A DNA stretch of 64,000 nt from Propionibacteriaceae bacterium (GTDB taxonomy: Bacteria; Actinomycetota; Actinomycetes; Propionibacteriales; Propionibacteriaceae). The notes beneath the pieces were generated by a model. The model did not search any database, was not told the origin of the DNA, and worked only from the letters and a program-made list of their open reading frames with translations. This document shows, piece after piece, positions 2,025 through 36,432 of this stretch. Location of the stretch: assembly GCA_031266665.1 (NCBI GenBank), contig JAISAO010000031.1:1-64000 (forward strand). The letters run 5' to 3'. The translations under genes were made by a program, and so were the position numbers. Position 1 is the stretch's first letter, and each line of letters begins with the position of its first letter.

Positions 2025-4508
2025 ATGTCCCAGTTCGTCCGTCGTCTGGTCCGTTCGACGGCTTTGGCCTTGGTCGCGTTGGCCGTCGGACTGGCCTGGG
2101 GCCAACCCGCCTGGGCCGAGCCGAGCCCGACGAGTCCGACGACCGCCGGCCCGGCGGCGAACAGCGCCGCCGCCGACCAGAACACCGACACCACCGCCGC
2201 CACGGCCGCCGACCCGACCACAGCCCAAACCGACACCCCCGCCCCGAACGCCGCCGTCCCGACCACGAGCGCCGCGCCCGACACCACCGACACCGACCCC
2301 GACCAGACAGACGCAGACGACCAGACCGACGCCGACCGGACCGACGCCGCCGGCCAAGACGCCGACGGCCAGAACACCGACGCCGTGGTCGTGCCGCCCT
2401 TGGCGGCCAACCGGGCCGCCACGCCCAACCTCGACGGCCGCACCATCGTCATCCGCACCAGCCTCTCCTCGACCCAAGTCCTCGACATCCCCAACAGCAA
2501 CACCAAACCCGGAACCCGAATCCAACTCTGGGGCTCCAACCTGACCAAAGCCCAACAATTCCGCCTGACCTGCGACACCGACAACTGGTGCGTCATCAAA
2601 AACCTCGCCACCGGACTCGTCCTCGACATCCCCAACAGCACCACCACCCCCGGCGCCCGAGTCCAACAATGGACCCCCAACGGCTCCCCCGCCCAACAAT
2701 GGCAACCCCGACCCAACACCGACGGCACCCACACCCTCGTCTCCCGCCTACGCCCCAACCTCGTCCTCGACATCCCCAACAGCAACCCCGCCAACGGAGC
2801 CCCCGTCCAAACCTGGACCGCCAACAACACCCCCGCCCAAAAATTTCACCTCATCAACCTCGACCACCAAACCCCCTCCAACCAAACCATCCCCGACGGC
2901 TACTACACCATCAACTCCGCCCTCCCCGGCGCCCCCAGCCTCGACGCCCCCACAAACGCCGCCCGAACCCAAATCTGGACCCCCAACCACACCCTCGCCC
3001 AAACCTTCCAAATCACCTGGCGCCCCGACACCGGCTACTACACCATCCGCTCCGCCGCCACCGGACAAGCCCTCACCGCCGCCAACATCACCGCCGGCGC
3101 CCCCACCACCCTCACCCCCTACCAAAACACCGTCGCCCAACAATGGGCCATCACCGACAACCCCGACCACACCCACACCATCGCCGCCCGCCAAACCGGA
3201 CTCGTCCTCGACCTACCCGCCAGCAACACCACCCCCGGAACCCGAACCCAACTCTGGACCCCCAACAACACCACCGCCCAACACTTCACCCTCACCACCA
3301 ACCTCGCCGTCAACCCCGGCTACAACCAAATCACCCCCGCCGCCGCCACCGACAAACACATCGACATCCCCATGTCCACCCGCCAGAACAACGCCCCCCT
3401 CCAGGCCTACAAAGCCAACACCAGCCTGGCCCAACGCTTCCAAATCCAACCCCAAGGCGACGCCTTCACCATCCGCGGCCTCGCCACCGGCCAACTACTG
3501 GCCGACCTCGACGGCGACGCCGTCCAACAAACCAACACCACCACCCCCCGGCCCAACCAACTATGGACCGCCGCCCAAACCATCGGCGGCGTCACCCTCA
3601 CCAACCAAGCCACCGGCCGCCTCCTCACCCTCACCACCGGCGGCATGGACGGCCACGACCTCGCCGTCCAGCCCCCCAACCACCAACCCACCCAAATCTT
3701 CAACATCCAACCCGCCTACATCATCGACCCCGGCCTCCACACCCTCACCACCAACACCGGCCAAAACATCGACCTCAAAAACGCCGCCCCCCAACCCGGC
3801 ACACCCATACAACTAGCCAACCCCAACACCGGCAACAACCAAAAATGGGCCATCACCCAAAACAACGGCTGGCTTGCCATCGTCTCCGCCCAAACCGGCC
3901 AAGCCATCGACATCAACCAATCACAAACCACCGACGGCACCAAAATCCAACAATACTACGCCAACCAAACCAAAGCCCAACAATGGCGCCTCACACCCAC
4001 CACCGACGGCTGGCTCACCCTCCAATCCGCCCTCGGCCCCTACATCGCCCAAACCACCACCGGACAAACCCTCACCACCACCAACAACCCCGACAAAGCC
4101 CTCAAACTAACCTACACACCCACCACCGCGTCGACGATCACGGCAGCCTCGGGGGAGAAATGGATAGATATCAACCTGTCCGCCCAGACCCTGTCGCTTT
4201 ATCAAGGCTCCACCCGGGTCTGGGGGCCGACCGCGATCAGTTCCGGCAAACCGGGCACGCCGTCCGACCAAGGCGTCTTCCGCATTTACCTCAAATACGC
4301 CCTGCAAACGATGAGCGGACCCGGCTACGTCCAGCCCGACGTCCCCTGGGTGTCTTATTACAACGGCGGCGAGGCCGTCCACGGGGCCTATTGGCACAAT
4401 AATTTCGGCCACACGATGTCACATGGCTGCATCAACATGCGCGTGGCCGAGGCCAAGCTGGTGTGGGACTGGGCCCCCATAGGCACCAAGGTTGTCGTCC
4501 ACAGTTGA
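2025..4508 (+). CDS. secreted ricin-type lectin / L,D-transpeptidase fusion
   Basis: An 827-residue secreted protein. ATG 2025 is preceded by GGAAAGG eight bases upstream. Residues 1-36 are a Sec signal peptide ending at an AWA site. A Thr/Asp/Ala-rich linker runs to about 134. Residues 135-698 are tandem beta-trefoil units with repeated VLDIPNSNT-type and IQLWxxNxxxAQxF/W (QxW) motifs, about four domains of the ricin-B/RICIN type. Residues 700-827 form a YkuD (L,D-transpeptidase) domain ending in HTMSHGCINM; Cys802 is the catalytic residue. Known family role: cross-linking or anchoring at meso-diaminopimelate in peptidoglycan. The lectin part probably binds a surface glycan, perhaps the one made by the neighbouring genes (inference). 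The lectin DNA has extreme C/A bias on this strand, unlike the transpeptidase part. Confidence 0.93.
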   Translation: MSQFVRRLVRSTALALVALAVGLAWGQPAWAEPSPTSPTTAGPAANSAAADQNTDTTAATAADPTTAQTDTPAPNAAVPTTSAAPDTTDTDPDQTDADDQTDADRTDAAGQDADGQNTDAVVVPPLAANRAATPNLDGRTIVIRTSLSSTQVLDIPNSNTKPGTRIQLWGSNLTKAQQFRLTCDTDNWCVIKNLATGLVLDIPNSTTTPGARVQQWTPNGSPAQQWQPRPNTDGTHTLVSRLRPNLVLDIPNSNPANGAPVQTWTANNTPAQKFHLINLDHQTPSNQTIPDGYYTINSALPGAPSLDAPTNAARTQIWTPNHTLAQTFQITWRPDTGYYTIRSAATGQALTAANITAGAPTTLTPYQNTVAQQWAITDNPDHTHTIAARQTGLVLDLPASNTTPGTRTQLWTPNNTTAQHFTLTTNLAVNPGYNQITPAAATDKHIDIPMSTRQNNAPLQAYKANTSLAQRFQIQPQGDAFTIRGLATGQLLADLDGDAVQQTNTTTPRPNQLWTAAQTIGGVTLTNQATGRLLTLTTGGMDGHDLAVQPPNHQPTQIFNIQPAYIIDPGLHTLTTNTGQNIDLKNAAPQPGTPIQLANPNTGNNQKWAITQNNGWLAIVSAQTGQAIDINQSQTTDGTKIQQYYANQTKAQQWRLTPTTDGWLTLQSALGPYIAQTTTGQTLTTTNNPDKALKLTYTPTTASTITAASGEKWIDINLSAQTLSLYQGSTRVWGPTAISSGKPGTPSDQGVFRIYLKYALQTMSGPGYVQPDVPWVSYYNGGEAVHGAYWHNNFGHTMSHGCINMRVAEAKLVWDWAPIGTKVVVHS

Positions 4509-4621: not shown

Positions 4622-6145
4622 ATGATGAGAGCGGCGCGATCAGTGGAGGACCAGGCAGTGGAGGACCAGGCAGTGACGGACCAGGCCCAAGGCGGCGTCT
4701 ACGTGCCGCTGAGCTACGAGGTCGACTTGGACGGCCGCGCCGAGCCCAAATTCTTACGCCACTTCAACGAGTTGGTCTCCGGCGCCCTGGCCCACGGTTG
4801 GCCCGTCGTCGCCCAGGCCCGGCTGTTCGACCACTTGACGACCGCGCCGCCGGTGTCGTGGGCCGCCCAGGACCCGCTGCCGCGCACGGCGGAGCAATTG
4901 GACGGCCTCGACCGGCGAGTCATCTCGGACCAGGTCGAGGCCCAGATCTTGGAACAGACCGGCGGCACAGCCGAGGCCTGGGTCGCCTTGGGGAAAGTCG
5001 TCTTCCCCCAGTTGGAGGCCGCCGTCCACGATTGCCTCCAGGCCATCGTGGCCCAGTACGGCGGCATCAAGGCGGTCTTGATGTGGCGCTCCCTGCCCAG
5101 CGTGCGTCAGGCCGCCGACCGGCTGGGCGTCCCGGTGGTGGACCTGGAGTTGGGCTCCATCCGACGGCCGTTGTACCGCGACACCATGGCCTACTTCCAG
5201 TTCGGCCCCAAGTTCGACCCGGCGGAGTATGAGCGCCGTCTGGCCCGCTTCCAGGCCGAGACAGCCACGGCGCCCTGCCCGCTGCTGACGCGCAAGGAGA
5301 TCCTGGCCCTGTTCCTGCGCGACCGCGACCTGCGCCGCCTGAGCACCATGGACGACTACGAGCCCTTCGAGGTCGGGCTGGCCCTGGCCCCGGCGGGCGA
5401 CGTCGAGGCCCGCTCGACCGACTCCCCGCTGCGGCCCGAGTTGTTGCGCCGGGTCCAAGCCCTGGCCCCGGCCGAGACCGTCCTGGTCCGCCCCTACTAC
5501 CCCGAGCGGCCCCAGTTCGACCGTCTCCAGGTGGACCACTCGATCGACGCCGCCGAGTTCGTCCTGAGCTGCCGCCGGGTGGTGTCGTCGGTCTCGAACC
5601 TGGCCTACGAGACCATGTTGTACGGCAAGACGGCCTATATCTGGGGCCCGATGCCCTTCGCCTCGGCCGGGGTGATGACGGCCGAGCGGTTGGACGAGAG
5701 CGTGGTCGACTTGGAGCGGCTGAACTGGATCAGCTTCGGCTTCTTCGCCCCCTACGACCTGATCGGCGACCAGGACTACCTCGACTGGCGGCTGTCGCAA
5801 CCCTCGGAGACGGCGATCTACCGCCGCCACCTGGAGTATTACCTCGACCGCTGGTCGGTTCCGAGCGCCGCCTTAGAGCTGACCGGCCAAGACCGGATGG
5901 CGGCCTTCCTAGCCCCCCGCGGCTTCGGCTCCGCCGCCGCCGTCATCGGCCCGTCCCGCCGCCAGGCGGTCCAAGAGTTGGCCCGGCTGCGGACGGACAA
6001 GGCGACCCTGGAGCAACGGGCGGCCCAGGCCGACGAACGCCAGGCCCAGGCCGAGGAGCAGTTGGAGGCCGTCTGGCGGTCGAATTCCTGGCGGGTGACC
6101 AAGCCGCTGCGGGTTGTCTCCGACCGTCTGCGCCGCTCGCGCTGA
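4622..6145 (+). CDS. putative glycosyltransferase, candidate nonulosonate transferase
   Basis: A 507-residue protein starting at ATG 4622, behind a strong GAGGAGGGGG site. There is no signal peptide. The central part (VLVRPYYPERPQFDRLQVDHSI, then SNLAYETMLYGKTAYIWGP) looks like the donor half of a GT-B enzyme of the capsule/Kdo-transferase kind, in which a Ser-x-x-x-x-E/Asn pattern reads the CMP-sugar. The last 60 residues form a charged coiled coil (LARLRTDKATLEQRAAQAD) ending in SNSWRVTKPLR, a tail seen on many cell-wall glycosyltransferases. It is convergent with, and only 54 bp from, the CMP-pseudaminate synthetase gene. Transfer of Pse is therefore the leading guess, but the family assignment is weak. 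Confidence 0.6.
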   Translation: MMRAARSVEDQAVEDQAVTDQAQGGVYVPLSYEVDLDGRAEPKFLRHFNELVSGALAHGWPVVAQARLFDHLTTAPPVSWAAQDPLPRTAEQLDGLDRRVISDQVEAQILEQTGGTAEAWVALGKVVFPQLEAAVHDCLQAIVAQYGGIKAVLMWRSLPSVRQAADRLGVPVVDLELGSIRRPLYRDTMAYFQFGPKFDPAEYERRLARFQAETATAPCPLLTRKEILALFLRDRDLRRLSTMDDYEPFEVGLALAPAGDVEARSTDSPLRPELLRRVQALAPAETVLVRPYYPERPQFDRLQVDHSIDAAEFVLSCRRVVSSVSNLAYETMLYGKTAYIWGPMPFASAGVMTAERLDESVVDLERLNWISFGFFAPYDLIGDQDYLDWRLSQPSETAIYRRHLEYYLDRWSVPSAALELTGQDRMAAFLAPRGFGSAAAVIGPSRRQAVQELARLRTDKATLEQRAAQADERQAQAEEQLEAVWRSNSWRVTKPLRVVSDRLRRSR

Positions 6146-6151
6146 GCCATC

Positions 6152-6200
6152 AGTCCTGATCCACCGCTTCTCGACTGCCGACCAGCGCTGGATCAGGACT
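6152..6200. repeat. family A palindromic repeat, probable bidirectional terminator
   Basis: Two 17-base arms, AGTCCTGATCCACCGCT (6152-6168) and AGCGCTGGATCAGGACT (6184-6200), pair with one mismatch around a 15-base loop. The element fills the gap between two convergent genes; the last base of the right arm is the first base of the pseF stop codon (TCA at 6200-6202, read as TGA). The same sequence family recurs at 47669-47723, 16327-16383, 36704-36750 and, in shorter form, elsewhere. Position and stem strength fit a transcription stop for both genes, though no U-tract follows. Confidence 0.8.
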
Positions 6201-6973
6201 CAGCCGGGCCTCTCGGCCGGCCGGCCGGCGGCCGGGGCGGCCACCTGGTGGACCGGCTTCTGCGCCACTGCGGCGTTGATGGCCGCCAGTTCCGGGTGGC
6301 GGTCGAGCAGGGCGATGATGGCCTCGGCGTCGAGGCCGGCGGCCCCGTGGTCCTCGATCAAGCGGCGCAGCAGACGATAGTCGGCGGCCGTGTCGACCGT
6401 CAGGCGGTAGGCCGAGGCGTCGGCCCCACGGACGACCTGTTCGACGGTCACCCTGGGATCGGCTCCGGACCACAGGTAAGGGGTGACGTGTTCCCGTTGC
6501 CAGGGCTCGGTCGCCAACTCGGCCGCCGCCGCCAAGGCCTGGGCGCTGAAAACCTCGAAGTCGAAGCCCCGGGGATAGGTCCGCCGGACGGTGTTGGAGA
6601 GGTAGAGCCAGGGGTCGTCCCGGCTAACGAAACGGTCCACCCCGCCGGCCACCAGGGCGCCGTCGATCAGGGGGCAGTCCGAGGTCGCTCGGACCACCAG
6701 GTCGAGGTCGAAGGCGGCGGCGCAGGCGGCGAAACGCCCCAAGACGTCGTACTCGTCGCCCCGGAAACAGGGCCAGCCGCGCTGGTCGGCCAACTCGGCC
6801 ACCGGGTCGTCGGCGGTGTTGGCCGTGGTGGCCAGATAGACCGCCAGCCCGCCGGCCGCCAGGCGGTCGACGTGATGCTCCAACAGGCTGCGTCCGCCGG
6901 CCGGCAGCAGGATCTTCCCCGGCAGGCGGGTCGAGGTCGTCCGCGCCTGGGTGATGACCCCGACGCGGGTCAC
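6200..6973 (-). CDS. pseF: pseudaminic acid cytidylyltransferase, SpsF/CTP_transf_3 type
   Basis: A 257-residue cytidylyltransferase. The start is GTG at 6973, which overlaps the pseC stop as GTGA, so translation is probably coupled. The N-terminus VGVITQARTTSTRLPGKILL contains the R-x-x-S-x-R-L-P-x-K nucleotide-binding signature of CMP-sugar synthetases. VVRATSDCPLID and REHVTPYLW are further conserved blocks of the SpsF-like branch. Expected reaction: CTP + Pse to CMP-Pse, the activated donor for transfer to a surface glycan. The neighbours pseC and pseB and the nearby pseG/pseH and pseI make the Pse assignment much firmer than sequence alone. The C-terminal residues run into the family A repeat. 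Confidence 0.85.
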   Translation of the reverse strand: MTRVGVITQARTTSTRLPGKILLPAGGRSLLEHHVDRLAAGGLAVYLATTANTADDPVAELADQRGWPCFRGDEYDVLGRFAACAAAFDLDLVVRATSDCPLIDGALVAGGVDRFVSRDDPWLYLSNTVRRTYPRGFDFEVFSAQALAAAAELATEPWQREHVTPYLWSGADPRVTVEQVVRGADASAYRLTVDTAADYRLLRRLIEDHGAAGLDAEAIIALLDRHPELAAINAAVAQKPVHQVAAPAAGRPAERPG

Positions 6974-8094
6974 CGCAGGGCCTCGGCCACGGCCTCCACC
7001 ACCTGGTCGACCTGGTCGTCGCTCAGGCCGGGGTGCAGCGGCAGGGACAACTCCTGGGCGTAGAAGGCCTCGGCCTGGGGGCACAGGCCACGGCGGTAGC
7101 CCTGGTCGGCGTAGACCGGGTGCCAGTAAACCGGCAGGTAGTTGACCTGGACGCCGATGCCGTCGGCCCGCAGCCGCTCGTAGACCTGGCGGCGGCGCCC
7201 CTCCAAGACGCGCAGGGGGTAGAGATGCCACACCGGGTCGACGCCGGGGCGCAGCGGCGGCGTCGCCACCGAGGGCAGCTCGCCCAAAGCGGCGTTGTAG
7301 CGGGCGACGATTTGGCCGCGACGGCGTTTGAAGGCCGCCAGCCGGTTCAACTGGGACAGGCCCAGGGCGCAGGCGATGTCGGACAGACGGTAGTTCAGCC
7401 CGAAGGCCTGGACCTCTTGGTGCCACGGGCCCTGGTCGGCCAGGCGGAAACGTTCCGGGTCGCGCACCAGGCCGATGTTGTGGAACTCGCGCGCCCGCCG
7501 GGCCAAGGCCGGGTCGCGACATACCACCGCCCCGCCCTCGCCGGAGGTGATGTTCTTGGTGGGGAAGAAGGAGAAGGCCGTGACGTCGGCCAAGCCGCCG
7601 ACCGGGCGGCCCCGGTCCGAGCCGCCGATGGCGTGGGCGGCGTCGGCCAGCAGGACCGCCCCGACCGACTGGGCCACCGGCCGCAAGGCCTCGTAGTCGG
7701 CCGGCTGACCGGCGTAATCAACCGCCGTGATCGCCTTGGTGCGACCGGTCACCGAGGCGGCGACGGCCGCCGGGTCGATCAGGCCCGAGTCGGGCTCGAT
7801 GTCGGCGAAGACGATCTTGGCCCCGAACAGGGAGGCGGCCGAGGCTGTGGCCACGAAGGTCATCGGCGTGGTCACAACCTCGTCGCCCGGCCCCAGTCCG
7901 ATGGCGGCGTAGGCGACGTGGAGGGCGGCCGTGCCCGAAGTGGTCGTGACCACGGGCAGCCCGCCCGCCAACTGGGACAGGGCGGCCTCGAACTGGTCCA
8001 CCGCCGGGCCGGTGGTCAGCCAGTCGCCGGCCAGCACCGCCGCCACGGCGGCGACATCCTCAGCCGAGATCGACTGGCGGCCGTAGGACAACAT
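6970..8094 (-). CDS. pseC: UDP-4-amino-4,6-dideoxy-AltNAc transaminase
   Basis: A DegT/DnrJ/EryC1-family PLP aminotransferase of 374 residues. ATG 8094 is chosen because the protein then opens with the family-typical MLSYGRQSIS; a GTG at 8097 just touches the pseB stop and is the alternative. Visible signatures are TSGTAALHVAYAAIGLGPGDEV, LADAAHAIGG and SFFPTKNITSGEGG, whose Lys should bind PLP as the internal aldimine. The C-terminal GVQVNYLPVYWHPVY is typical of PseC. It converts the PseB product (UDP-4-keto-6-deoxy-L-AltNAc) to the 4-amino sugar using glutamate. It is packed between pseB and pseF with 2-4 base junctions, i.e. one operon. Confidence 0.93.
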   Translation of the reverse strand: MLSYGRQSISAEDVAAVAAVLAGDWLTTGPAVDQFEAALSQLAGGLPVVTTTSGTAALHVAYAAIGLGPGDEVVTTPMTFVATASAASLFGAKIVFADIEPDSGLIDPAAVAASVTGRTKAITAVDYAGQPADYEALRPVAQSVGAVLLADAAHAIGGSDRGRPVGGLADVTAFSFFPTKNITSGEGGAVVCRDPALARRAREFHNIGLVRDPERFRLADQGPWHQEVQAFGLNYRLSDIACALGLSQLNRLAAFKRRRGQIVARYNAALGELPSVATPPLRPGVDPVWHLYPLRVLEGRRRQVYERLRADGIGVQVNYLPVYWHPVYADQGYRRGLCPQAEAFYAQELSLPLHPGLSDDQVDQVVEAVAEALR

Positions 8095-8096
8095 CA

Positions 8097-9092
8097 CTAG
8101 GCCTGTTCCAACAAGGCGGCCAGAGCTTCGACCGAGTACCACTGGTCGTTGCTGTCGGAGCGGTAGGCGAAGCCAGCGGGCGTCGGCGTCGCCCCGGCCG
8201 GGGGGCGGTAGCCCCAGGTGCCCAGGTCCGGCTGGATGACGTAGTAGTCGCCGCCGGCCAGCATCAGCGCCCGGCGGCCCTCCTCGGGGGAGATCATCTC
8301 CTCGTGCAGCTTCTCGCCCGGCCGCAGCCCGATGTCCTCCAACTCGGCCTGAGGGGCCACGGCCTGGGCCAGGTCGACAATCTTGACCGACGGGATGCGC
8401 GGCACCAGCAACTCACCGCCCTGCATCAGGTCGAACATGTCGACCACCATGCGCACGGCCTGGGCCAGCGTGATGAGGAAACGGGTGCAGCGCAGGTCGG
8501 TGATCGGCAGCGGCAGGCCGGCGGCCGCCCGGCGGCGGAAGAAGGGGATGACGGAGCCGCGCGAGTCGATGACGTTGCCGTAGCGCACGACGGCGAAGCG
8601 GGTGGGGTAGGCGGCGGCATAGTGGTTGCCGTTGATGAACAACTTGTCGGCCGTCAGCTTGGTGGCGCCATAGAGGTTGATCGGGCTGGAGGCCTTGTCC
8701 GTCGACAGGGCCACCACTTTCCCGACCCCGGCCTCAATGGCCGACTCGACCACGTTCTGCGATCCCAGGACATTAGTTTTGACGAACTCGAAGGGGTTGT
8801 ACTCGGCCGTGTCGACCTGTTTCAAGGCGGCGGCGTGGACCACGTAGTCGATGCCGCGCATGGCCCGGGTCAGTCGCCGCTCGTCCCGGACGTCGCCGAT
8901 GAACCAGCGCAGCCGGGGGTCGTCGTCGAAGGCCTGGCGCAATTCATATTGCTTTAACTCGTCGCGCGAGTAGACCGCCAGCCGCCTCGGCCCCACCTGG
9001 TCCAAGACGTAACGCAAGAAAGCCTTGCCGAAAGAGCCGGTGCCGCCGGTGATGAGCACATTCGACCCGCTGAGCACCGACACCCCCGACAC
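8097..9092 (-). CDS. pseB: UDP-GlcNAc 4,6-dehydratase (5-inverting)
   Basis: A 331-residue SDR enzyme, the first step of pseudaminic acid synthesis. The start is set by AGGAGG five bases before GTG 9092; upstream in-frame codons lack such a site. VLITGGTGSFGKAFL near the N-terminus is the Rossmann NAD(P)-binding motif. LSTDKASSPINLYGATK carries the short-chain dehydrogenase Tyr-x-x-x-Lys and the NPINLYGATK block diagnostic of PseB/FlaA1. Length matches the family (about 330). It is the promoter-proximal gene of pseB-pseC-pseF and is divergent from the pseG-pseH fusion, so both units may share a control region at 9093-9254. Confidence 0.95.
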   Translation of the reverse strand: MSGVSVLSGSNVLITGGTGSFGKAFLRYVLDQVGPRRLAVYSRDELKQYELRQAFDDDPRLRWFIGDVRDERRLTRAMRGIDYVVHAAALKQVDTAEYNPFEFVKTNVLGSQNVVESAIEAGVGKVVALSTDKASSPINLYGATKLTADKLFINGNHYAAAYPTRFAVVRYGNVIDSRGSVIPFFRRRAAAGLPLPITDLRCTRFLITLAQAVRMVVDMFDLMQGGELLVPRIPSVKIVDLAQAVAPQAELEDIGLRPGEKLHEEMISPEEGRRALMLAGGDYYVIQPDLGTWGYRPPAGATPTPAGFAYRSDSNDQWYSVEALAALLEQA

Positions 9093-9254
9093 TGATACCT
9101 CCTGGGATCGACCAAACCGTCCCGGGGCCAAGCCCGGGGCCGGGCCAAGCCCGACTGGGGCATTCTAACGCCGACCGCCGGCCCGCCCGCGGGCCGCGCC
9201 CGGCCGGGGCGCCCGACGACCGCTACGGTTGGTCATGGTCCACCGGGAGGCGAG
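9093..9254. promoter_or_regulatory. divergent control region between pseB and the pseG-pseH fusion
   Basis: This 162-bp gap separates two outward-facing Pse genes and carries their ribosome-binding sites: AGGAGG (complement of 9098-9103) for pseB and GGGAGG (9244-9249) for pseG-pseH. The region is very GC-rich. I could not find convincing -35/-10 hexamers or an operator by eye, so promoter presence is inferred from gene orientation only. Confidence 0.45.
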
Positions 9255-10751
9255 ATGACGGCTTTGAACGTCCGGCTGCACTGCAACGGCGGCGGCCGTT
9301 ACGGGCTGGGCCACGTCATGCGTTGCGTCGCCCTGGCCCAGGAGGCCTCGGCCCGGGGCTGGCGGGTGCGGCTGGGGGGCGACCTCAGCCCCCGGGCGGT
9401 CCAGTCGGTGGCCGCCCTGTGCCCGGCGGCCGAGGTCGAGACGGTGGCCGCCGGGGCCATCGGCCCCTGGCTGGCGGCGGCCGGGGCCGACGTCCTCCAC
9501 CTCGACAGTTACTGGCTGCGCCCCGACGACCGACCCCGGGGTGGACCCTTGGTCTCCGGCCTGCGCGACGACCCCTGGGGGACGCCCGGCGACCTGACGA
9601 TCCATCCCACCCTGGGGGCGGAGACGGCGGCCGGCCCGCCGCTAGGCGGGGTCGAGTTGTTCGGCGTCGACTACGCCCTTGTCCGCCGCCAGATCTTGGA
9701 CCGCCGCCAATCGCCGACGGTGGAGCGGGAGGGCGTCCTGGTGGTCGTCGGCGGGACCGATCCCCAGGGGCTGGCCCCCAGGCTGGCCGCCGGCCTGCTG
9801 CGGCTGGCGCCGGAACTGGCCCTGACCGTGGTGGCCTCGGGGGCGGGGGCGGGTCCGTTGCGGGACCTGGCCGCCGACCACCCCCGGCTACGGCTATTGC
9901 CCTTCGTGGACGACCTGGCGGCCTGGTCCCAACGGGCCGCCCTGGTGGTGACGGCCGCCGGCACCACCGTCTGGGACCTGGCCGCCCTGGGCACGCCGCT
10001 GGCCCTGGTGGCGACGGCCGACAACCAACTGGCGGGCTATCGGGCGGCCGTCCGGGCGGGGCTGGCCCTGGGCCTAAGCCTCGATCCAGCGCCACCCGAC
10101 CACCGGGGCGAGCCACCGGACCTGTCGGCCGGCCTGGACCAGGCGGTCGCGGCCCTGACCCAGCCGGAGCGTCTGGCCCGATTGGGCGCCCGGGGGCGGG
10201 AACTGGTCGACGGGCTGGGGGCCTGGCGGGTGGTTTCGGCCTGGGAACAACTGGTCCGAACCGGGGTGAGCGGTGGACCGGAGGCCGGGCTGACGGTCCG
10301 GCCGGTCGGCCACCAGGACGCCGAGTTGTTGTTGGCCTGGCGCAATCACCCGGCCACCCGGCTGGCCTCGCGCTCGACCGGGGTGATCCCCTGGTCCCAG
10401 CACCGGGAGTGGCTGGAGGCAGTTTTAGCGGACCCGGAACAACACCGCCTGGTAATAGTCCAACGCGGCCCCCAGGCGGTCGGCACGGTCCGCTGGCGGC
10501 GCCTGGGCGCCCGCCACTGGGAGGTCTCCTTGACCGTCGCCCCGCCGTGTCGCGGCCAGGGCCTGGGGGCGGCGGTCCTGCTGGCCGGCCAGGCGGCGCT
10601 GCCCCGCCAGGGCCTGACCCGGCTTGAGGCCGTCATCCGTCACGACAATATAGCTTCACAAAAGACCTTCGCCAAGGCCGGCTATCTGCCCTTCCGGCCG
10701 GCGGACGCCGCCGGTCTCACCAGCGCCGTCGCCTGGCGCCGCCTGGACTGA
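9255..10751 (+). CDS. PseG-PseH fusion: UDP-sugar hydrolase plus GNAT N-acetyltransferase
   Basis: A 498-residue two-domain enzyme. Residues 1-335 match PseG, a GT-B-fold hydrolase: GRYGLGHVMRCVALAQEA is its glycine-rich signature, with VVVGGTDPQGLAPRL and VTAAGTTVWDLAALGTP further on. It removes UDP from UDP-2,4-diacetamido-2,4,6-trideoxy-altropyranose. Residues about 345-498 are a GNAT domain (LTVRPVGHQDAELLLAWRN start, CRGQGLGAAVLLAG acetyl-CoA loop, ending like PseH), expected to N-acetylate the 4-amino group. PseH acts before PseG, so the fusion would channel two consecutive steps. ATG 9255 follows GGGAGG. In Campylobacter and Helicobacter these are separate proteins. Neither domain shows a break. 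Confidence 0.9.
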   Translation: MTALNVRLHCNGGGRYGLGHVMRCVALAQEASARGWRVRLGGDLSPRAVQSVAALCPAAEVETVAAGAIGPWLAAAGADVLHLDSYWLRPDDRPRGGPLVSGLRDDPWGTPGDLTIHPTLGAETAAGPPLGGVELFGVDYALVRRQILDRRQSPTVEREGVLVVVGGTDPQGLAPRLAAGLLRLAPELALTVVASGAGAGPLRDLAADHPRLRLLPFVDDLAAWSQRAALVVTAAGTTVWDLAALGTPLALVATADNQLAGYRAAVRAGLALGLSLDPAPPDHRGEPPDLSAGLDQAVAALTQPERLARLGARGRELVDGLGAWRVVSAWEQLVRTGVSGGPEAGLTVRPVGHQDAELLLAWRNHPATRLASRSTGVIPWSQHREWLEAVLADPEQHRLVIVQRGPQAVGTVRWRRLGARHWEVSLTVAPPCRGQGLGAAVLLAGQAALPRQGLTRLEAVIRHDNIASQKTFAKAGYLPFRPADAAGLTSAVAWRRLD

Positions 10752-10961
10752 GATCCGGGCTGATCGGCCTGACCGGTGACACATCGGACGAGTTTTGGGG
10801 TCGAGGCGCGCGACACTCGCTCAGGCCAGATCCAGCAATGATCTCCGTGACGAGTGGCCCTAGTGGATGGCGTGGTGACTCGAGGACGGAGTGAACCTTC
10901 GTTGAGCGTCGTCGACGCCGCCAGCGCGCCCGGGTGGGGCCGCCCAGCGGTGGAACTGGGC
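10752..10961. repeat. degenerate family A repeat material between convergent Pse genes
   Basis: This gap lies between the ends of pseG-pseH and pseI. Its right end reads GTGGGGCCGCCCAGCGGTGG then GGGCTCAG, a copy of the family A right half with an internal deletion. Upstream, GGAGTGAACCT and CAGCGCGCCCGGGTGGGG also occur before the family A copy near 36660-36710. The TGA stop of pseI (complement of 10962-10964) falls inside the terminal GGGCTCAG. The left end (TGAGATCCGGGCTGATC from 10749) resembles a second, decayed half. No gene is visible here; a terminator role is possible. Confidence 0.6.
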
Positions 10962-12053
10962 TCAGACCAGGTCCCAGGTCAGCGGCGTGCCGGCGGCGAC
11001 GGCGCGGCGGAAACGCCGCCCCAACACCAGGCCGAGTTGGTCCGGGTCCAGCCCGCCGGACGGACGAATTGAACGCACATTGTCGGCCGTGACCTCGTCC
11101 CCGGCGGCCACAGCCGTGGTCACGAACAAGGAGCGGCGCAGTCCCCAGACGGCCGCCTCGGCCTCGGAGGGGCCGAAACCGGCCGGCGCCCGGCTGGACA
11201 GGCGGGCTTGCTCGACCGCCTCCACCAACTGGGCCAACTCCGCTGGCGAGGCCGAGAAGGCCGAGTCGACGGCGCCGTCGTGACGGTCCAAGGTGACGTG
11301 TTTCTCGACGCAGACCGCCCCCAGGGCGGCCGCCGCCACCGCCACACCGATGCCCAAGCTGTGGTCCGACAGTCCGACCGGGCAGTCGAAGGCCCGGGAC
11401 AACAGCTCCAGGTTGGCCAGGCGGACATCCTGCGGCCGGGCCGGGTAGGCGGCCTGGCAGACCAGCAAGACCAATTCAGCCGTGCCGGCTTGGCGCAGGG
11501 CCGTCACCGCCTGGTCGATCTCGGCCAGGGAGGCCATCCCGGTCGACACCATGACCGGCTTGCCGGTGCGGGCGATCTCGCGCAGCAGCGGCCGATCAAC
11601 CAGCTCGGCCGAGGCGACCTTGTACAGCGGGCAGTCCAACTCCTCCAGGAAGGCCACGGCGCTGGGGTCGAAGGGGCTGGAGAAGGCCACCAGGCCGAGC
11701 TGATGGGCCCGCTGGAACAACGGTCGATGCCATTCCCAGGGCGTCTGGGCCTCGGAATAGAGATCGTGCAGGTTGCGCCCGCCCCACAGCTCGTGGTCGT
11801 CGCGCAGCCGGAAGGCGGGAGCCGAGCAGTCGATGGTGATGGTGTCGGCGGTGTAGGTCTGGAGTTTGACCGCCGACGCCCCGGCGACGGCCACGGCCTC
11901 GACGATGCCCAGGGCGCGCTCCAGCGAGCCGCCGTGGTTGCCCGACAGCTCGCCCACCACGAATAGCGGCGCCCCGGCGGCGATCGTCCGGCCCTGGACC
12001 TCGATCGCCCGGCCGGCCCCGCTGGGGACGGCGGCGGGCGCCGCCGAGGTCAT
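10962..12053 (-). CDS. pseI: pseudaminic acid synthase (NeuB family)
   Basis: A 363-residue sialic-acid-synthase-family enzyme. FVVGELSGNHGGSLERAL and GASAVKLQTYTADTITID are the NeuB-family active-site start; FSSPFDPSAVAFLEELD, VSTGMASLAEID and GLSDHSLGIGVAVAAAALGA follow the TIM-barrel order. From about residue 300 there is a C-terminal SAF (antifreeze-like) domain, as in NeuB/PseI. It condenses the PseG product with phosphoenolpyruvate to give Pse. ATG 12053 directly follows the TAG stop of the upstream GT2 gene, so it belongs to the four-gene minus-strand unit GT4, coiled-coil protein, GT2, pseI. Choice of Pse over legionaminate or sialate rests on the neighbouring pseB/C/G/H/F. Confidence 0.93.
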   Translation of the reverse strand: MTSAAPAAVPSGAGRAIEVQGRTIAAGAPLFVVGELSGNHGGSLERALGIVEAVAVAGASAVKLQTYTADTITIDCSAPAFRLRDDHELWGGRNLHDLYSEAQTPWEWHRPLFQRAHQLGLVAFSSPFDPSAVAFLEELDCPLYKVASAELVDRPLLREIARTGKPVMVSTGMASLAEIDQAVTALRQAGTAELVLLVCQAAYPARPQDVRLANLELLSRAFDCPVGLSDHSLGIGVAVAAAALGAVCVEKHVTLDRHDGAVDSAFSASPAELAQLVEAVEQARLSSRAPAGFGPSEAEAAVWGLRRSLFVTTAVAAGDEVTADNVRSIRPSGGLDPDQLGLVLGRRFRRAVAAGTPLTWDLV

Positions 12054-13208
12054 CTAGGCCGCCCGGGTGGGGTAGACGTAACGGTCCCGCCGGTTGGGGA
12101 CCTGGGCCAACTGGTCGGCCGTGTCCCCCCGGTCGAAGATGTCGACCGTCTCCGGGCCCCGGTCGAACAGTCGGGCCAGCCCGGCCAGGACCGGTTCGCC
12201 GGCCGCCAGGGGCCAGTCCAGCTCGAAGCCCAGATAGTCGATCTGGACCCGGTCGCAGCCTTGGGGGGCGACCCGGCAATGGGGCCTGACGAGCGAGGCC
12301 GGGCGGGGCAGCCAGGACACCTCCAGGCTGTAGCCCAGGCGGAGGCCGGCCTCGGCCAGGAGGGCCTGGCGGGCCTGGTCCCACAGCCGGCGGCTGATCC
12401 CAGTGGCCTCGAAGGCCGCCACCTCCTGGCGGAAGCCGGGGTGGCGCTGGTCGATGACGGCCTCGTTGGCCGGCACCGTCGTCATACCATCGGCCAACAG
12501 CCCGGCCGCCCGGTTGGAGCCGCCGCCGGCGTGGTAGACGAAGCCGCCCGGGGCCAGACAGGCGCGCTGGCCCAGGGCCCGGCTGCGGCAGCTCCAGTCG
12601 ACCTCCTCGCAGTAGCCCCGGCCGAAGATCGGGTCCATCAGCCCGACCAGGCGGATGGCCTCGGCCGGGATCAGCATGAAGAAAGAGATACCGGTCGGGA
12701 TGTCGACCAGGACGGGTCCCAGAGTGTCGGCCAGGGTCTGCGACACCCAGTCGACCGTCGCCTGGTCGGTCAAGAAGTGGTCCGGGTCGCGGTTGGGCAA
12801 GGAGTAGATCGAGGCGTTACAAGACAGGGCCGTGACCGAGCCCACCCGATCACCGCCGGCCCGCCAGGCCTGGACCAGGGCGGTGACGGCGTTACGGGGG
12901 TAGATCACGTCGGAGTTGGAGACGATGGCGCAGTCGTAGTCGCGGGCCAGAGCCGTTTTCAGACCCAGGTTGACATTGCGCGGGATGCCCAGGTTGCGCG
13001 GGCTGCGGTAGTAGTCGATACCCCGCTCCCGGCACAGCGCGGCCAACTCTTGGCTCCAGCCCGGCTCGGGCGAGCAGTCGTCCAAAACGATGACGTCGAG
13101 CTCCAGCCCGTCGCGGTCCAGCCGGGCGGCCGAGTCCAGCGTGCGGGTGAAGAAGTCCCGGCCGTTATAAGCCGTCAGGCACAACAGCGCCCGGGTCGTC
13201 CGGGTCAT
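12054..13208 (-). CDS. family 2 glycosyltransferase
   Basis: A 384-residue GT2 protein. ALLCLTAYNGRDFFTRTL opens the GT-A fold; VIVLDDCSPEPGW and CAIVSNSDVIYPRNAV give the nucleotide-binding and DxD-like (SNSD) positions. GYCEEVDWSCRSRALG matches the later ED-x-D/W region. About 120 residues follow the catalytic domain and are not recognised. ATG 13208 overlaps the stop of the coiled-coil gene by four bases, and the stop abuts the pseI start, so it is translated with the Pse synthase. It may act on the same glycan, but donor and acceptor are not readable. Confidence 0.83.
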   Translation of the reverse strand: MTRTTRALLCLTAYNGRDFFTRTLDSAARLDRDGLELDVIVLDDCSPEPGWSQELAALCRERGIDYYRSPRNLGIPRNVNLGLKTALARDYDCAIVSNSDVIYPRNAVTALVQAWRAGGDRVGSVTALSCNASIYSLPNRDPDHFLTDQATVDWVSQTLADTLGPVLVDIPTGISFFMLIPAEAIRLVGLMDPIFGRGYCEEVDWSCRSRALGQRACLAPGGFVYHAGGGSNRAAGLLADGMTTVPANEAVIDQRHPGFRQEVAAFEATGISRRLWDQARQALLAEAGLRLGYSLEVSWLPRPASLVRPHCRVAPQGCDRVQIDYLGFELDWPLAAGEPVLAGLARLFDRGPETVDIFDRGDTADQLAQVPNRRDRYVYPTRAA

Positions 13209-13597
13209 CGGCCCAGCACCCGTCGGGCCAAGGCCCGGCCGCGACGCCGGACCAGTCGCAGCGCCCGGACGGCCGAGTCCCCCAGGCCGTCGAACTGGCC
13301 CCGTAGGCCCTTGGCCTGGGCCAGTTCGGCCCGCAGGCGCAACAACTCGTCCCCGCTCTGGTTCAGCCGGGCGGTCAAGTCGATCACCCGGGCGTTGGCG
13401 ATCTCCAAATCGATCAGGGCCTGTTCCAAGCTGAGCTGGTCCAGGCTCGGCCCCGGCTCGGCCACGTCTGACCGGTCCGCCGCCGGCGGGGCCGCAGCCG
13501 GATCGGCCACCGGCTCCACCGGCTCCACCGGCTCCAGCGGGGTCGGTTGGGCCTGGGTGGCTGGGGGTTTCGTCTTAGTCGGCTTAGTCGGTGACAT
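13205..13597 (-). CDS. small Pro-rich coiled-coil protein in the GT operon
   Basis: A 130-residue protein starting at ATG 13597, with AGGAGG five bases upstream, lying inside the end of the GT4 gene (14-base overlap). The N-terminal third is Pro/Thr/Lys-rich with a short EPVEPVEPV repeat. Residues about 50-100 are a heptad-like coiled coil (LDQLSLEQALIDLEIANA, then LRLRAELAQAKGL). The C-terminus is strongly basic (RLVRRRGRALARRVLGR). It has no signal peptide or membrane segment. The coil plus basic tail resembles the extreme C-termini of several wall glycosyltransferases, such as the one at 4622-6145. It may therefore be a detached tether or scaffold for the enzymes encoded on either side. 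Function unknown. Confidence 0.7.
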   Translation of the reverse strand: MSPTKPTKTKPPATQAQPTPLEPVEPVEPVADPAAAPPAADRSDVAEPGPSLDQLSLEQALIDLEIANARVIDLTARLNQSGDELLRLRAELAQAKGLRGQFDGLGDSAVRALRLVRRRGRALARRVLGR

Positions 13598-15548
13598 GGC
13601 GTCCTCCTGTTCGGTTGTCGCTCGGGTCTGGCCGCAGCGATGGGCGCGACAACGAGTCGAGATAGGCCGCGATCAAACGGTCGGCGTAGCGCCGCCAGGT
13701 CAGACGCGCCGCGGCGGCCCGGACCGCCTCCACCTGGCGGCGGGCCAGCTCCGGTTGGGACAGGGCCGTGATGGCGTCGGCCAGGGCGGCGGGCGTCCAG
13801 TCGGCCGCCGTCACCGGGATGTCGCCCAGCAGTTCGGCCAGGGGACCGAAGCCGACGAAGACGGTCGGGGTGTCGAAGACGGCCGCCTCGAAGGGCACCA
13901 GTCCGAAGCCCTCGGCCGAGGTCGGATAGCAGACGACCTGGGCGTGGCTCAGCAGCCAGTCGCGCTCCGCCTCCGTGACGTCGGCCAGCGTCAGCGGCCC
14001 CGGACCGGTCATGGCCGCCCGGGCCTCCGACTGGCGGCTCGACCCGAGGGGCACGATGGCCCCGGCCAGGACCAGTTCGAGGTCCGATCCCCGGCGGCGC
14101 AGCTCCTGCCAGGCCCGGATCGCCAGATCGCGGTTCTTGTGGGCGTAGTCCGCCCCCAGCACCACGATGAAGGGGCGGGCCGCCCAGCCGGCGGCCAGCA
14201 GGTCGGGCGGGGGGGTCGGGTCGGCGGTCGGCCGGAGGTGGTCGGCCCCATTCTCGATCACGTAGACAGCCTGATCGGCTATCGGCAGCCGGGCGCGGCG
14301 GATCATGGCGGCGGTGTCGTGGGAGATGGCCACCACGGCGTCGACCTGGCCCACCGCCTGGCGCAGATGGCGGCGGTAGCCGAGATATTCCGCCGGCTGG
14401 CCGAAGTAATGACCATTGTCGTAGGCGATGAGGTCTTGAATGGTGATGAAAACCCTCCGCCCCAGTTGTCGCCAGCGCTCCAGCGGCAGGCGGCCGGAGG
14501 GCTGGAAGGGCCGGTGGACGATGTCGACGGCGGTCAGGGAGGGGAATTGGCCGCCCCGCTCGTCGATCACCGTGATCTTGGGGTGGCCCAAAACCGGCCG
14601 GGCGTAATCCGGGATCCGGCCCTCGGTGGTGCCGACGTAGAGCCGGCTGATCCTGGGGTCGTCCGCCAGGGCTTGGAGTTGGCCCAGCGTCGCCACCTGG
14701 GTGCCCATCTGGTAGCGGCCCAGCGCCGAGCCGTCGAAGGCCACCGTCAAACCCTCGACGCCCGCCCGCAGGAAAGCCAGCACCTGGCCCACGGGGGCGG
14801 TCTCGGAAACGTGTTCCTGGTCGTAGAGGCCGGGGAACTCCGGGGCGTGCCGGGCCTCCAGCCAGGCCCGGGGGGCCTCGACGTCGATCGGGTCCGGCCG
14901 GTCGCCGGGCTGGGCCGGGCGGGTCAGATAGGTCGTCGGGTCGAGCAGGTTGGCGAAGCCGCGGCGTCTGGCCCGCAGGGCGAAATCGGTCACGGCCAGC
15001 GCCGGGTCCGCCACCGTCGGGTCCAGCCCGCCCACCGCCCGCAGGGCGACGCCCGCCACCAGCACCGCGCCGCCGGCCGGCGCCGGCAGCGGCACCGCCG
15101 GCTGGGGCGGCAGGGCGCGCAGGGCCCGGGTGAGGGTGATCTCGTTGTGGCCGTTGGGGGCCAGGGGGACGGGGGCGTTGCGGTCGGGGAAGCTCAGGTA
15201 GGAGGCGCTGTTGGACAGGAACGACACCGTGGCCACCCGCCGGTCGTCCCCCACTGCCGCCAGGGCCGGCCCGAAGGGGTCCAGCGGCGCCACCACCGGG
15301 CTCCAGGCCACCAGCACGGCCTCGGCCCCGTCGGCCACCAGTTGGTCGACCGCTTGGGCCAGCGGGGCCGTCGTGGTCGCCACCTTGTAGGGCTCGGGCC
15401 AGTCCAGCACCGTGCCCGGGCCGATCAGAGCGACGACGGCCACATCGTTGTCGCATAGGGCCTTGACCGAGGCGGTCCAGCGCTCCGGCTGGCCGCCGAC
15501 GCAAAGCAGGGCCTGAAAGGGGGGCCCAAGCACCGTCTCGCCAGTCAC
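13584..15548 (-). CDS. large GT4 (group 1) glycosyltransferase with degenerate N-terminal domain
   Basis: GTG 15548 is used because GGAGG lies six bases upstream; this gives 654 residues. The C-terminal about 330 residues are a GT-B group 1 enzyme: VFITIQDLIAYDNGHYFG, VDAVVAISHDTAAMI, FIVVLGADYAHKNRDLAI and CYPTSAEGFGLVPFEAA, whose EGFGLVPFE is the E-x7-E donor-binding motif. The first 280 residues look like a decayed GT2-type domain (FQALLCVGGQPERWTASV, later AVGGLDPTVADPALA), probably no longer catalytic. First gene of the minus-strand unit ending in pseI. Likely a cytoplasmic enzyme building the Pse-containing glycan; substrate unknown. Confidence 0.85.
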   Translation of the reverse strand: MTGETVLGPPFQALLCVGGQPERWTASVKALCDNDVAVVALIGPGTVLDWPEPYKVATTTAPLAQAVDQLVADGAEAVLVAWSPVVAPLDPFGPALAAVGDDRRVATVSFLSNSASYLSFPDRNAPVPLAPNGHNEITLTRALRALPPQPAVPLPAPAGGAVLVAGVALRAVGGLDPTVADPALAVTDFALRARRRGFANLLDPTTYLTRPAQPGDRPDPIDVEAPRAWLEARHAPEFPGLYDQEHVSETAPVGQVLAFLRAGVEGLTVAFDGSALGRYQMGTQVATLGQLQALADDPRISRLYVGTTEGRIPDYARPVLGHPKITVIDERGGQFPSLTAVDIVHRPFQPSGRLPLERWRQLGRRVFITIQDLIAYDNGHYFGQPAEYLGYRRHLRQAVGQVDAVVAISHDTAAMIRRARLPIADQAVYVIENGADHLRPTADPTPPPDLLAAGWAARPFIVVLGADYAHKNRDLAIRAWQELRRRGSDLELVLAGAIVPLGSSRQSEARAAMTGPGPLTLADVTEAERDWLLSHAQVVCYPTSAEGFGLVPFEAAVFDTPTVFVGFGPLAELLGDIPVTAADWTPAALADAITALSQPELARRQVEAVRAAAARLTWRRYADRLIAAYLDSLSRPSLRPDPSDNRTGGRHVTD

Positions 15549-17867: not shown

Positions 17868-17878
17868 TGTCGTGTTAG
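17864..17878. repeat. solo end of the family C CTAG element
   Basis: CTAGTGTCGTGTTAG here is identical to one end of the 106-bp element at 36467-36572 (complement of 36558-36572). The TAG stop of the membrane-protein gene (17865-17867) is formed by the CTAG. No second end is recognisable nearby, so it is probably a remnant or a deletion scar. Confidence 0.5.
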
Positions 17879-17987
17879 AGGCGTGGGTCGACGACGGGCC
17901 GGCCGGCCTGTGACATCCTGGGACGGCGCGGCCGCCGGTCGGGCCGTGACGCCGTGACCCGGTGAATCTAGGGTGAAGGGAGTTGAT

Positions 17988-19149: not shown

Positions 19150-19156
19150 GCGACGC

Positions 19157-34036: not shown

Positions 34037-36432
<2,396 letters not shown>

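Follow-up and report, generated by a model that had tools for sequence, protein, structure and literature searches.

In K. pneumoniae/Raoultella O12 the protein WbbB, a retaining Kdo chain terminator, combines GT99, GT102 and GT103 modules and is accompanied by an ABC exporter. Pseudaminate (Pse) is present in some actinobacterial teichulosonic acids, and the canonical route to CMP-Pse5Ac7Ac runs through PseB, PseC, PseH, PseG, PseI and PseF. As described in PMC12887879, enzymes of the GT99, GT107, GT118 and GT140 families use CMP-Kdo or CMP-Pse, and KpsS1, of family GT118, transfers Pse with retention and is a relative of both WbbB GT99 and KpsC. Coiled-coil terminators are described in PMC11231755, and walls with teichulosonic acid have been published for Kribbella (PMC6113628) and Streptomyces (PMC7831098), the available portions of both papers naming teichulosonic acid and Kdn only. 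Among the matches listed from the open-licence literature, no GT99-type enzyme was found in an actinobacterium, and Pse was tied only to GT118. Here we describe an actinobacterial locus, contained in a 64-kb window (the whole stretch of DNA that was analysed), in which Pse pathway genes lie next to a GT99-like gene.

Pseudaminate pathway genes

A sequence-only reading had recognized six Pse activities at 6200–12053, and every step of the route is indeed covered, but by five genes, PseG and PseH being fused; the scores for PseG and PseH are far below their cut-offs, and the PseF family is not matched. In profile searches, two of the five proteins score above the curated equivalog cut-offs and far beyond chance: PseB, the inverting UDP-GlcNAc 4,6-dehydratase (8097–9083, minus strand; TIGR03589, 446.7 bits, cut-off 407.75), and the pseudaminic acid synthase PseI (10962–12053, minus strand; TIGR03586, 406.9 bits, cut-off 340.25), which reaches 249.5 bits against a cut-off of 399.65 for the N-acetylneuraminate synthase family and is the sole NeuB-family match in the genome. 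The aminotransferase PseC (6970–8094, minus strand), likewise far beyond chance, is narrowly under its cut-off (TIGR03588, 407.3 of 423.5 bits), with the next family 155 bits lower at 252; its nearest solved structures are of the ArnB type, and 2fn6, labelled aminotransferase and presumably H. pylori PseC, comes lower at 166 bits. The PseG-PseH fusion (hydrolase plus N-acetyltransferase; 9255–10751, plus strand) has TIGR03590 and TIGR03585 as the best families of its two domains, both well under cut-off (85.2 of 153.55 and 38.3 of 93.1 bits), and matches PDB entries weakly (1vhs, E 0.0004; PseH 4xpk, E 0.004). The remaining gene (6200–6973, minus strand) encodes a CTP_transf_3 cytidylyltransferase (PF02348, 56.6 bits, cut-off 22.6), which we take by name to be of the SpsF type and which is the single PF02348 match genome-wide at E 0.001. 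The PseF model TIGR03584 did not hit it in the profile search, its only NCBIfam matches are weak ones to Kdo cytidylyltransferases (28.4 of 193 bits), and its nearest structure is 6oew, labelled cytidylyltransferase; the CMP-Pse step is assigned to it by gene context.

Among solved structures, PseB is closest to the H. pylori UDP-GlcNAc C6 dehydratase (PDB 2gn4, 334 bits, E 7.6e-99) and scores 116.5 bits against WlaL, presumably a retaining enzyme, so that the grouping of PseB with retaining enzymes, which the earlier reading had named as contrary to its proposal, is not seen. The structure nearest to PseI is the pseudaminic acid synthase 8h2c (220.7 bits), with SpsE at 143 and sialate synthases at 124.6 or less. 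Because PseB is nearest to the H. pylori dehydratase, pseudaminate is the best-supported product of the locus. A legionaminate product was rejected, the locus dehydratase and aminotransferase scoring 56.9 of 475 bits for LegB and 170.8 of 420 bits for LegC, both under cut-off, against 446.7 for PseB and 407.3 for PseC. The comparison with Pse, legionaminate and sialate profiles proposed in the earlier reading thus bears out PseB and PseI, with low scores for LegB and LegC, but leaves PseC, PseG and PseH under cut-off. Those three scores and the unmatched PseF model would suit another 5,7-diamino nonulosonate, either a Pse epimer or legionaminate, being made instead of Pse itself, and PMC12053666 reports extra enzymes in Acinetobacter that turn Pse into its 8-epimer; set against the LegB and LegC scores, and against nearest solved structures that come from the H. 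pylori C6 dehydratase and from a pseudaminic acid synthase, this appears improbable.

The tight gene packing noted before holds for PseB, PseC and the cytidylyltransferase, whose genes touch or overlap at their ends on the minus strand, and likewise for the GT2-PseI junction upstream of PseI, but not for the PseG-PseH fusion, which lies on the opposite (plus) strand, separated from its neighbours by roughly 171 and 210 bp. The pathway genes are open frames with local codon bias. A neighbouring acyltransferase gene is broken across frames.

Pse had been expected to be unusual for this group, and it is not: among 196 genomes sampled from the order, 48 have a PseI above the curated cut-off, and a phylum sample of 386, which overlaps with the first, has 13. 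The Pse pathway is thus frequent in this order and as such ordinary. Nine of the 12 relatives' loci have a PseB or PseC homologue near the synthase (eight each), one of the nine, L036, having a synthase under the PseI cut-off, and in locus L034 (genome G163) the genes for PseI, PseB, PseC, a cytidylyltransferase and a PseG-PseH fusion adjoin one another. From a reading of start sequences, nine of the 12 loci also have an acyl-carrier/ligase/reductase trio, which does not appear in the gene calls of the window. A search of the genome for flagellin at E 0.01 was negative; a flagellar use of Pse was therefore rejected, and a surface glycan, as already supposed in the earlier reading, is the likely target. 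Within the genus, three of 19 genomes, the present one included, have PseG-like matches with E values of 1e-50 or better, and the match in G166 contains one stop codon. This patchiness, the interrupted G166 copy and the split acyltransferase gene would be compatible with a decayed import, of either the pathway or the GT99-like gene, that yields no product, but the open, locally biased frames with touching or overlapping ends, and PseB and PseI scores above the equivalog cut-offs, make decay very improbable.

A GT99-like gene beside the pathway

At 4622–6145 on the plus strand lies a gene for a GT99-like protein (PF21912, PDB 5fa0) that corresponds to the N-terminal module of WbbB, carries a predicted C-terminal helix and is a putative CMP-pseudaminate transferase. 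The gene had escaped the sequence-only reading. Its start was chosen by the GAGGAGG-like stretch preceding it, and the protein was searched as 4643–6145 (500 residues). It belongs to PF21912 (52.1 bits, cut-off 27), and its residues 121–402 match the WbbB structures 5fa0 and 8csb–8csf at E ~2e-15. GT99 was found in one of 396 genomes of the phylum.

Catalytic residues for comparison were taken from PMC9587256 and located, in the 500-residue numbering, in an alignment of five rows (A1), namely the window protein and its Rhizobium, Citrobacter, phage and Subdoligranulum counterparts. The columns of the nucleophile, D253, and the base, E169, are common to four of the five rows, including the window protein; the Subdoligranulum row departs from this, with Ile in the Asp column (an Asp follows two columns later) and Asp in place of the Glu. 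The phmmer pairwise alignment to WbbB places the window Asp two positions off. Where the (K/R)xHP motif has its His, described as absolutely conserved (PMC9587256), the window protein has Tyr (R-P-Y-Y), and the Gln of QxxxD is absent from it (A-P-A-G-D); both residues are present in the Rhizobium, Citrobacter and phage rows, and the Subdoligranulum row has the Gln but, like the window protein, not the His. The loss of both residues would fit an altered or even inactive enzyme; this naturally occurring Tyr could also gauge how essential the histidine is. An AlphaFold model built on a two-sequence alignment is poor (mean pLDDT 34.5) and has the C-terminal helix at 438–499, with pLDDT of 65–70 for residues 451–480; a crude heptad score did not single this helix out.

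A scan of genome contigs with the GT99-like protein as query gave zero matches, and scans of viral contigs yielded a single relative, L044, which turned up a second time as L049. Four Caulobacteraceae loci from a scan with alignment A5 were rejected, as the match spans only 37–38 residues of a roughly 200-residue protein that resembles a SixA-type histidine phosphatase. The Subdoligranulum plasmid provides a second Gram-positive case, in which the GT99-like homologue adjoins a cytidylyltransferase that scores highest with the PseF family (59.4 bits, cut-off 205.7) and is followed, as the next gene, by a homologue (57% identity, E 1.9e-114) of the NAD epimerase encoded at 19157–20005 (minus strand) in the window. 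At E 1e-40, this epimerase has homologues in one genome out of the 196 sampled from the order.

Donor sugar, neighbouring genes and proposed function

Searches of the genome, which is 94% complete, found no Kdo-8-P synthase, no second PF02348-family cytidylyltransferase and no PF05159 protein, PF05159 being the family that we take to hold KpsC and KpsS. Kdo as donor was set aside as unlikely since no Kdo-8-P synthase was found in this 94% complete genome, the weak Kdo-cytidylyltransferase matches of 6200–6973 calling for caution. Pse would be the donor by exclusion, because there is one NeuB-family match and one PF02348 match, with neither Kdo-8-P synthase nor PF05159.

The minus strand immediately upstream of PseI, beyond the range of the earlier reading, carries the glycosyltransferase genes of 12054–15548. 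The GT2 enzyme at 12054–13208 (minus strand; PF00535) matches residues 477–712 of the Citrobacter WbbB-like protein, its middle module, with 34% identity over 250 amino acids (E 1e-24), against 3e-4 or weaker for the other GT2s in the window. At 13584–15548 (minus strand) a two-part glycosyltransferase with a C-terminal GT4 (PF00534/PF13692) has an N-terminal part weakly like 12054–13208 (phmmer 1e-5) and gives 0.18 with the WbbB-like middle module, both in a five-sequence set. On the Citrobacter plasmid the WbbB-like protein is encoded after an ABC permease and an ATPase. The window holds a Wzm-type ABC-2 permease (30678–31562, plus strand; PF01061, 56.2 bits) and a Wzt-type ATPase with a C-terminal extension (31577–32863, plus strand; PF00005), which matches the ABC transporter 8dku in the PDB over residues 28–270 (E 4.7e-64) and reaches 27.5 bits for Wzt_C (PF14524), under the cut-off of 30.4; no PDB relative of the extension was found. 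The UDP-galactopyranose mutase Glf (34037–35191, minus strand; PF03275, 257.9 bits) is 65% identical to a Glf near PseI in the same-genus G166, where two PF04464 proteins are encoded near the Pse genes. A classical teichoic polymer was rejected for the present genome, as no PF04464 was found in it.

On the basis of these data we lean, with modest confidence, towards a locus that makes CMP-Pse and in which the GT99-like enzyme would cap a surface polysaccharide with Pse, the Wzt/Wzm pair acting in export. The genes at 6200–12053 would convert UDP-GlcNAc to CMP-pseudaminic acid (5,7-diacyl), and Pse would go onto a surface polysaccharide built by the same locus. The 4622–6145 enzyme would most likely take Pse from CMP-Pse and add it to the chain in a retaining double displacement, with Asp as nucleophile and Glu as base, the reaction that WbbB carries out with Kdo; Pse at the non-reducing end would form a chain cap, and the capped chains would be recognized by Wzt and exported by Wzt/Wzm. 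Counting against this proposal, the GT99-like gene and PseB-C are on opposite strands, and Wzt lies 25 kb from the GT99-like gene.

Alternatively, Pse could sit in a side branch or within the repeat unit, placed there by some other transferase (such as one of the unassigned, GT2 or GT4 proteins), with a different role for the GT99-like protein. None of the 12 relatives' Pse-type loci has a homologue of the GT99-like gene, of 12054–13208 or of 13584–15548 at E 1e-8, so that Pse in general does not depend on the GT99-like gene; moreover, several unassigned proteins and glycosyltransferases are encoded within 844–33876, and the GT99-like protein has Tyr for His. Against this stand the CMP-Kdo or CMP-Pse donors of GT99, GT107, GT118 and GT140 (PMC12887879) and a genome in which no other PF02348 protein was found, and we consider the alternative unlikely, if well worth keeping in mind.

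A more ambitious form of the capping proposal, which we offer tentatively and regard as doubtful in its entirety, is a Gram-positive WbbB strategy based on a nine-carbon sugar, whereby a GT99-derived retaining transferase with Tyr for the catalytic HP His would cap a wall glycan with Pse and the C-terminal domain of Wzt would admit only Pse-capped chains to export. The window protein, and perhaps also the more divergent Subdoligranulum one, would then represent a nonulosonate-using branch next to GT99. If the GT99-like enzyme does use CMP-Pse, the covalent-intermediate transferase group would extend from Gram-negative Kdo to actinobacterial nonulosonate, a new Pse transferase would be to hand for the synthesis of Pse glycans, and it could be tested whether Gram-positive walls, too, rely on chain capping to gate export by length.

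Comparison with known systems

The locus follows the canonical Pse pathway in its order of activities, with PseB and PseI passing their cut-offs and PseC nearly so, and departs from it in the PseG-PseH fusion, the CTP_transf_3 cytidylyltransferase and a genome in which flagellin was not found. It shares with L034 of G163 the same fusion and the same set of five pathway genes, and differs from the 12 relatives' Pse loci that were read in the GT99-like, 12054–13208 and 13584–15548 genes, homologues of which those loci lack at E 1e-8. As with the teichulosonic acids of Kribbella and Streptomyces cited above, the proposed product would be an actinobacterial polymer with a nonulosonate; the Streptomyces example differs in being a Kdn polymer. 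The published description of KpsS1 (GT118), a relative of WbbB GT99 and KpsC, places the likely base within a YE motif (PMC12887879), whereas the window protein, which would use the same donor, keeps the Glu at the WbbB position. The WbbB system has in common with the window a GT99-like module, a GT2 matching the WbbB-like middle part, an extended Wzt and a predicted C-terminal helix; here, with no Kdo-8-P synthase found and the HP His replaced by Tyr, these elements are encoded by separate genes in an actinobacterial host.

Pseudaminic acid pathway and its distribution

The pathway for pseudaminic acid (Pse) that the sequence-only reading placed at 6200-12053 is real. On the minus strand, PseB (8097-9083; 446.7 bits, cut-off 407.75) and PseI (10962-12053; 406.9 bits, cut-off 340.25) exceed the cut-offs of their NCBIfam models; PseC (6970-8094, minus strand; 407.3 bits) falls below its cut-off of 423.5, as do both parts of a PseG-PseH fusion (9255-10751, plus strand; PseG 85.2 bits, cut-off 153.55; PseH 38.3 bits, cut-off 93.1). 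The cytidylyltransferase (6200-6973, minus strand) has no match to the PseF model, its sole NCBIfam matches being weak ones to Kdo families (28.4 of 193 bits). The ends of the PseB, PseC and cytidylyltransferase genes touch or overlap, and a GT2 gene ends immediately before the start of PseI. Among solved structures, PseB is nearest to the H. pylori UDP-GlcNAc C6 dehydratase (334 bits), followed by CapE and related enzymes (at most 225 bits) and WlaL (116.5 bits); PseB therefore does not show the grouping with retaining enzymes that would have refuted the earlier reading. The same comparison is less clean for PseC, where ArnB-type aminotransferases (223 bits) outrank 2fn6 (166 bits), which we take to be H. 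pylori PseC. The nearest structure to PseI is pseudaminic acid synthase 8h2c (220.7 bits), ahead of SpsE (143) and sialate synthases (at most 124.6), and the PseH part finds weak relatives only, with PseH ranked second.

Pse had also been thought unusual for the group, which the genome counts do not bear out. Of 196 genomes sampled from the order, 48 have a PseI above the curated cut-off and 62 more have a match below it; in a phylum sample that overlaps with the former, the figures are 13 of 386 and 108. Within the genus, 3 of 19 genomes, that of the window counted, have a PseG-like match (E 1e-50 or better), and the PseG-like match of G166, a genome of the same genus, contains a stop codon. 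The pathway is therefore ordinary for the order, though patchy. Twelve relatives' loci of 20 kb each were compared, of which L036 was picked for a weaker PseI and the other 11 for one above the cut-off; BLAST detected a PseB homologue in 8, a PseC homologue in 8 and either or both in 9, and one, L034 of genome G163, has the PseG-PseH fusion. As regards wall polymers, the available text of one paper describes that of Kribbella as mainly a teichuronic or teichulosonic acid (PMC6113628), and excerpts of another report a Kdn-galactose teichulosonic acid in the wall of Streptomyces coelicolor (PMC7831098).

Several other features accompany these loci. Judged by their start sequences, a small acyl-carrier-like protein, an AMP-ligase and a short-chain reductase lie near PseI in nine of the 12 (L026-L033, L035), the families being confirmed for L031; the trio, through which the sugar may receive an unusual acyl group, was not seen in L034, in L036 or among the 51 genes called in the window (GC about 70%) by a simple codon model made for the present analysis, and the L025 gene call is incomplete. 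Two proteins recur beside the Pse genes and are candidate Pse-handling or transfer enzymes: one of about 276 residues (L031:15471-16301), the other of about 490-625 (L031:13640-15478). Look-alikes occur in L026, L027, L029, L032, L033 and L035; the four proteins scanned, from L031 and L027, had no Pfam match at E 0.01. In L025, from G166, two CDP-glycerol glycerophosphotransferase-family proteins and Glf are encoded close to PseI, a teichoic-acid-like setting unlike that of the window.

A GT99-like enzyme and its likely donor

Converging on the cytidylyltransferase gene is a gene absent from the sequence-only reading (4622-6145, plus strand), the product of which matches the GT99 N-terminal domain (PF21912; 52.1 bits, cut-off 27) and, over residues 121-402, solved WbbB structures (E about 2e-15). 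According to the available portion of PMC9587256, WbbB caps chains with beta-Kdo via an Asp-sugar intermediate; that paper describes Asp232, Glu158 and His265 as absolutely conserved. We aligned the window protein with sequences from Subdoligranulum, Rhizobium, Citrobacter and an Agrobacterium phage, 24-30% identical to it. The E169 and D253 columns are common to the window, Rhizobium, Citrobacter and phage rows; in the window protein Ala replaces the Gln of QxxxD and Tyr replaces the His (R-P-Y-Y-P). In the Subdoligranulum row the Gln is retained, the Glu column holds Asp, the Asp column holds Ile (an Asp follows two columns later), and the His is missing. Since the phmmer pairwise alignment to WbbB offsets the window Asp by two places, the assignment of D253 as putative nucleophile depends on the multiple alignment. 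The adjacent gene (2025-4508), with strong GC and AT skew, encodes a protein in which an L,D-transpeptidase domain is combined with seven ricin-type lectin stretches; one might guess that it is anchored to the wall and serves as a lectin for the glycan made here.

The likely donor is CMP-Pse, because characterised members of GT99, GT107, GT140 and GT118 use CMP-Kdo or CMP-Pse, KpsS1 (GT118) being a retaining Pse transferase (both from excerpts of PMC12887879), and because the draft genome (3.28 Mb, 94% complete) has one NeuB-family and one PF02348 match, with no Kdo-8-P synthase found at E 0.01 and no PF05159 protein found, although genes may be missing from a draft assembly.

Rarity and genomic context of GT99-like genes

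Among the 196 order genomes, a query with the single protein matched two: that of the window and one more, whose match (72 residues, 19 bits) was discounted. PF21912 at E 1e-5 occurs in one of 396 genomes of the phylum, again that of the window, and GT99-like matches were found in four of 72,556 plasmid and one of 50,697 phage records.

On the Subdoligranulum plasmid, the homologue is preceded by a cytidylyltransferase gene with PseF as best family (59.4 of 205.7 bits) and followed by a gene 57% identical to window 19157-20005, the protein of which matches six plasmid records, five in other genera (including Bacteroides and Lactiplantibacillus), and one of the 196 order genomes at E 1e-40. Some 24 kb away on this plasmid is a PseB-like match (38%); the other Pse proteins have no match there at E 1e-6. 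On the Citrobacter plasmid, the homologue forms the N-terminal module of a larger protein (1188 residues), whose gene immediately follows those of an ABC permease and ATPase. The middle module of this protein resembles the product of the gene that precedes PseI, window 12054-13208, with 34% identity across 250 residues (E 1e-24); three other window GT2 genes reach 3e-4 to 1e-3 only. Window 13584-15548 shows no more than a weak relationship. In Agrobacterium phage Rivra (L042) the GT99-like gene (17734-19191) adjoins an annotated methyltransferase, and in an IMG/VR contig (L044) one lies near sequence reading like an acyltransferase; that such phage genes alter the host surface glycan is a guess.

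Proposed assembly and capping of the glycan

That an actinobacterial genome pairs a Pse pathway with a GT99-like enzyme is not reported among the matches listed in the open-licence literature, and the pairing is worth an enzyme assay; the pathway alone is ordinary for the order. We propose that the genes at 6200-12053 make CMP-Pse, that 12054-15548 and other glycosyltransferases would assemble a chain which, given the Glf gene in the window, may include galactofuranose, that the 4622-6145 protein would add Pse, and that Wzm/Wzt (30678-32863) would export the chain. Neither flagellin nor a CDP-glycerol polymerase was found in the genome. A membrane acyltransferase-3 gene (17973-19149) is apparently split over two reading frames, by sequencing error or decay; of the two pieces scanned, PF01757 matches the C-terminal one (from 18445) only. 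Just past the window, which takes the first 64 kb of the 95 kb contig, lie small and large nickel-iron hydrogenase subunits (G000:C86 65180-68155, i.e. L037:1180-4155).

Capping is the least certain step, because the Wzt extension scores 27.5 bits against Wzt_C (cut-off 30.4) and has no relative among solved structures, and the terminal helix of the GT99-like protein is visible only in a poor structure model. In Klebsiella O3, O5 and O12, as described in the available sections of PMC11231755, export is limited to capped chains because the carbohydrate-binding module of Wzt reads the cap, and the terminators carry a coiled-coil ruler.
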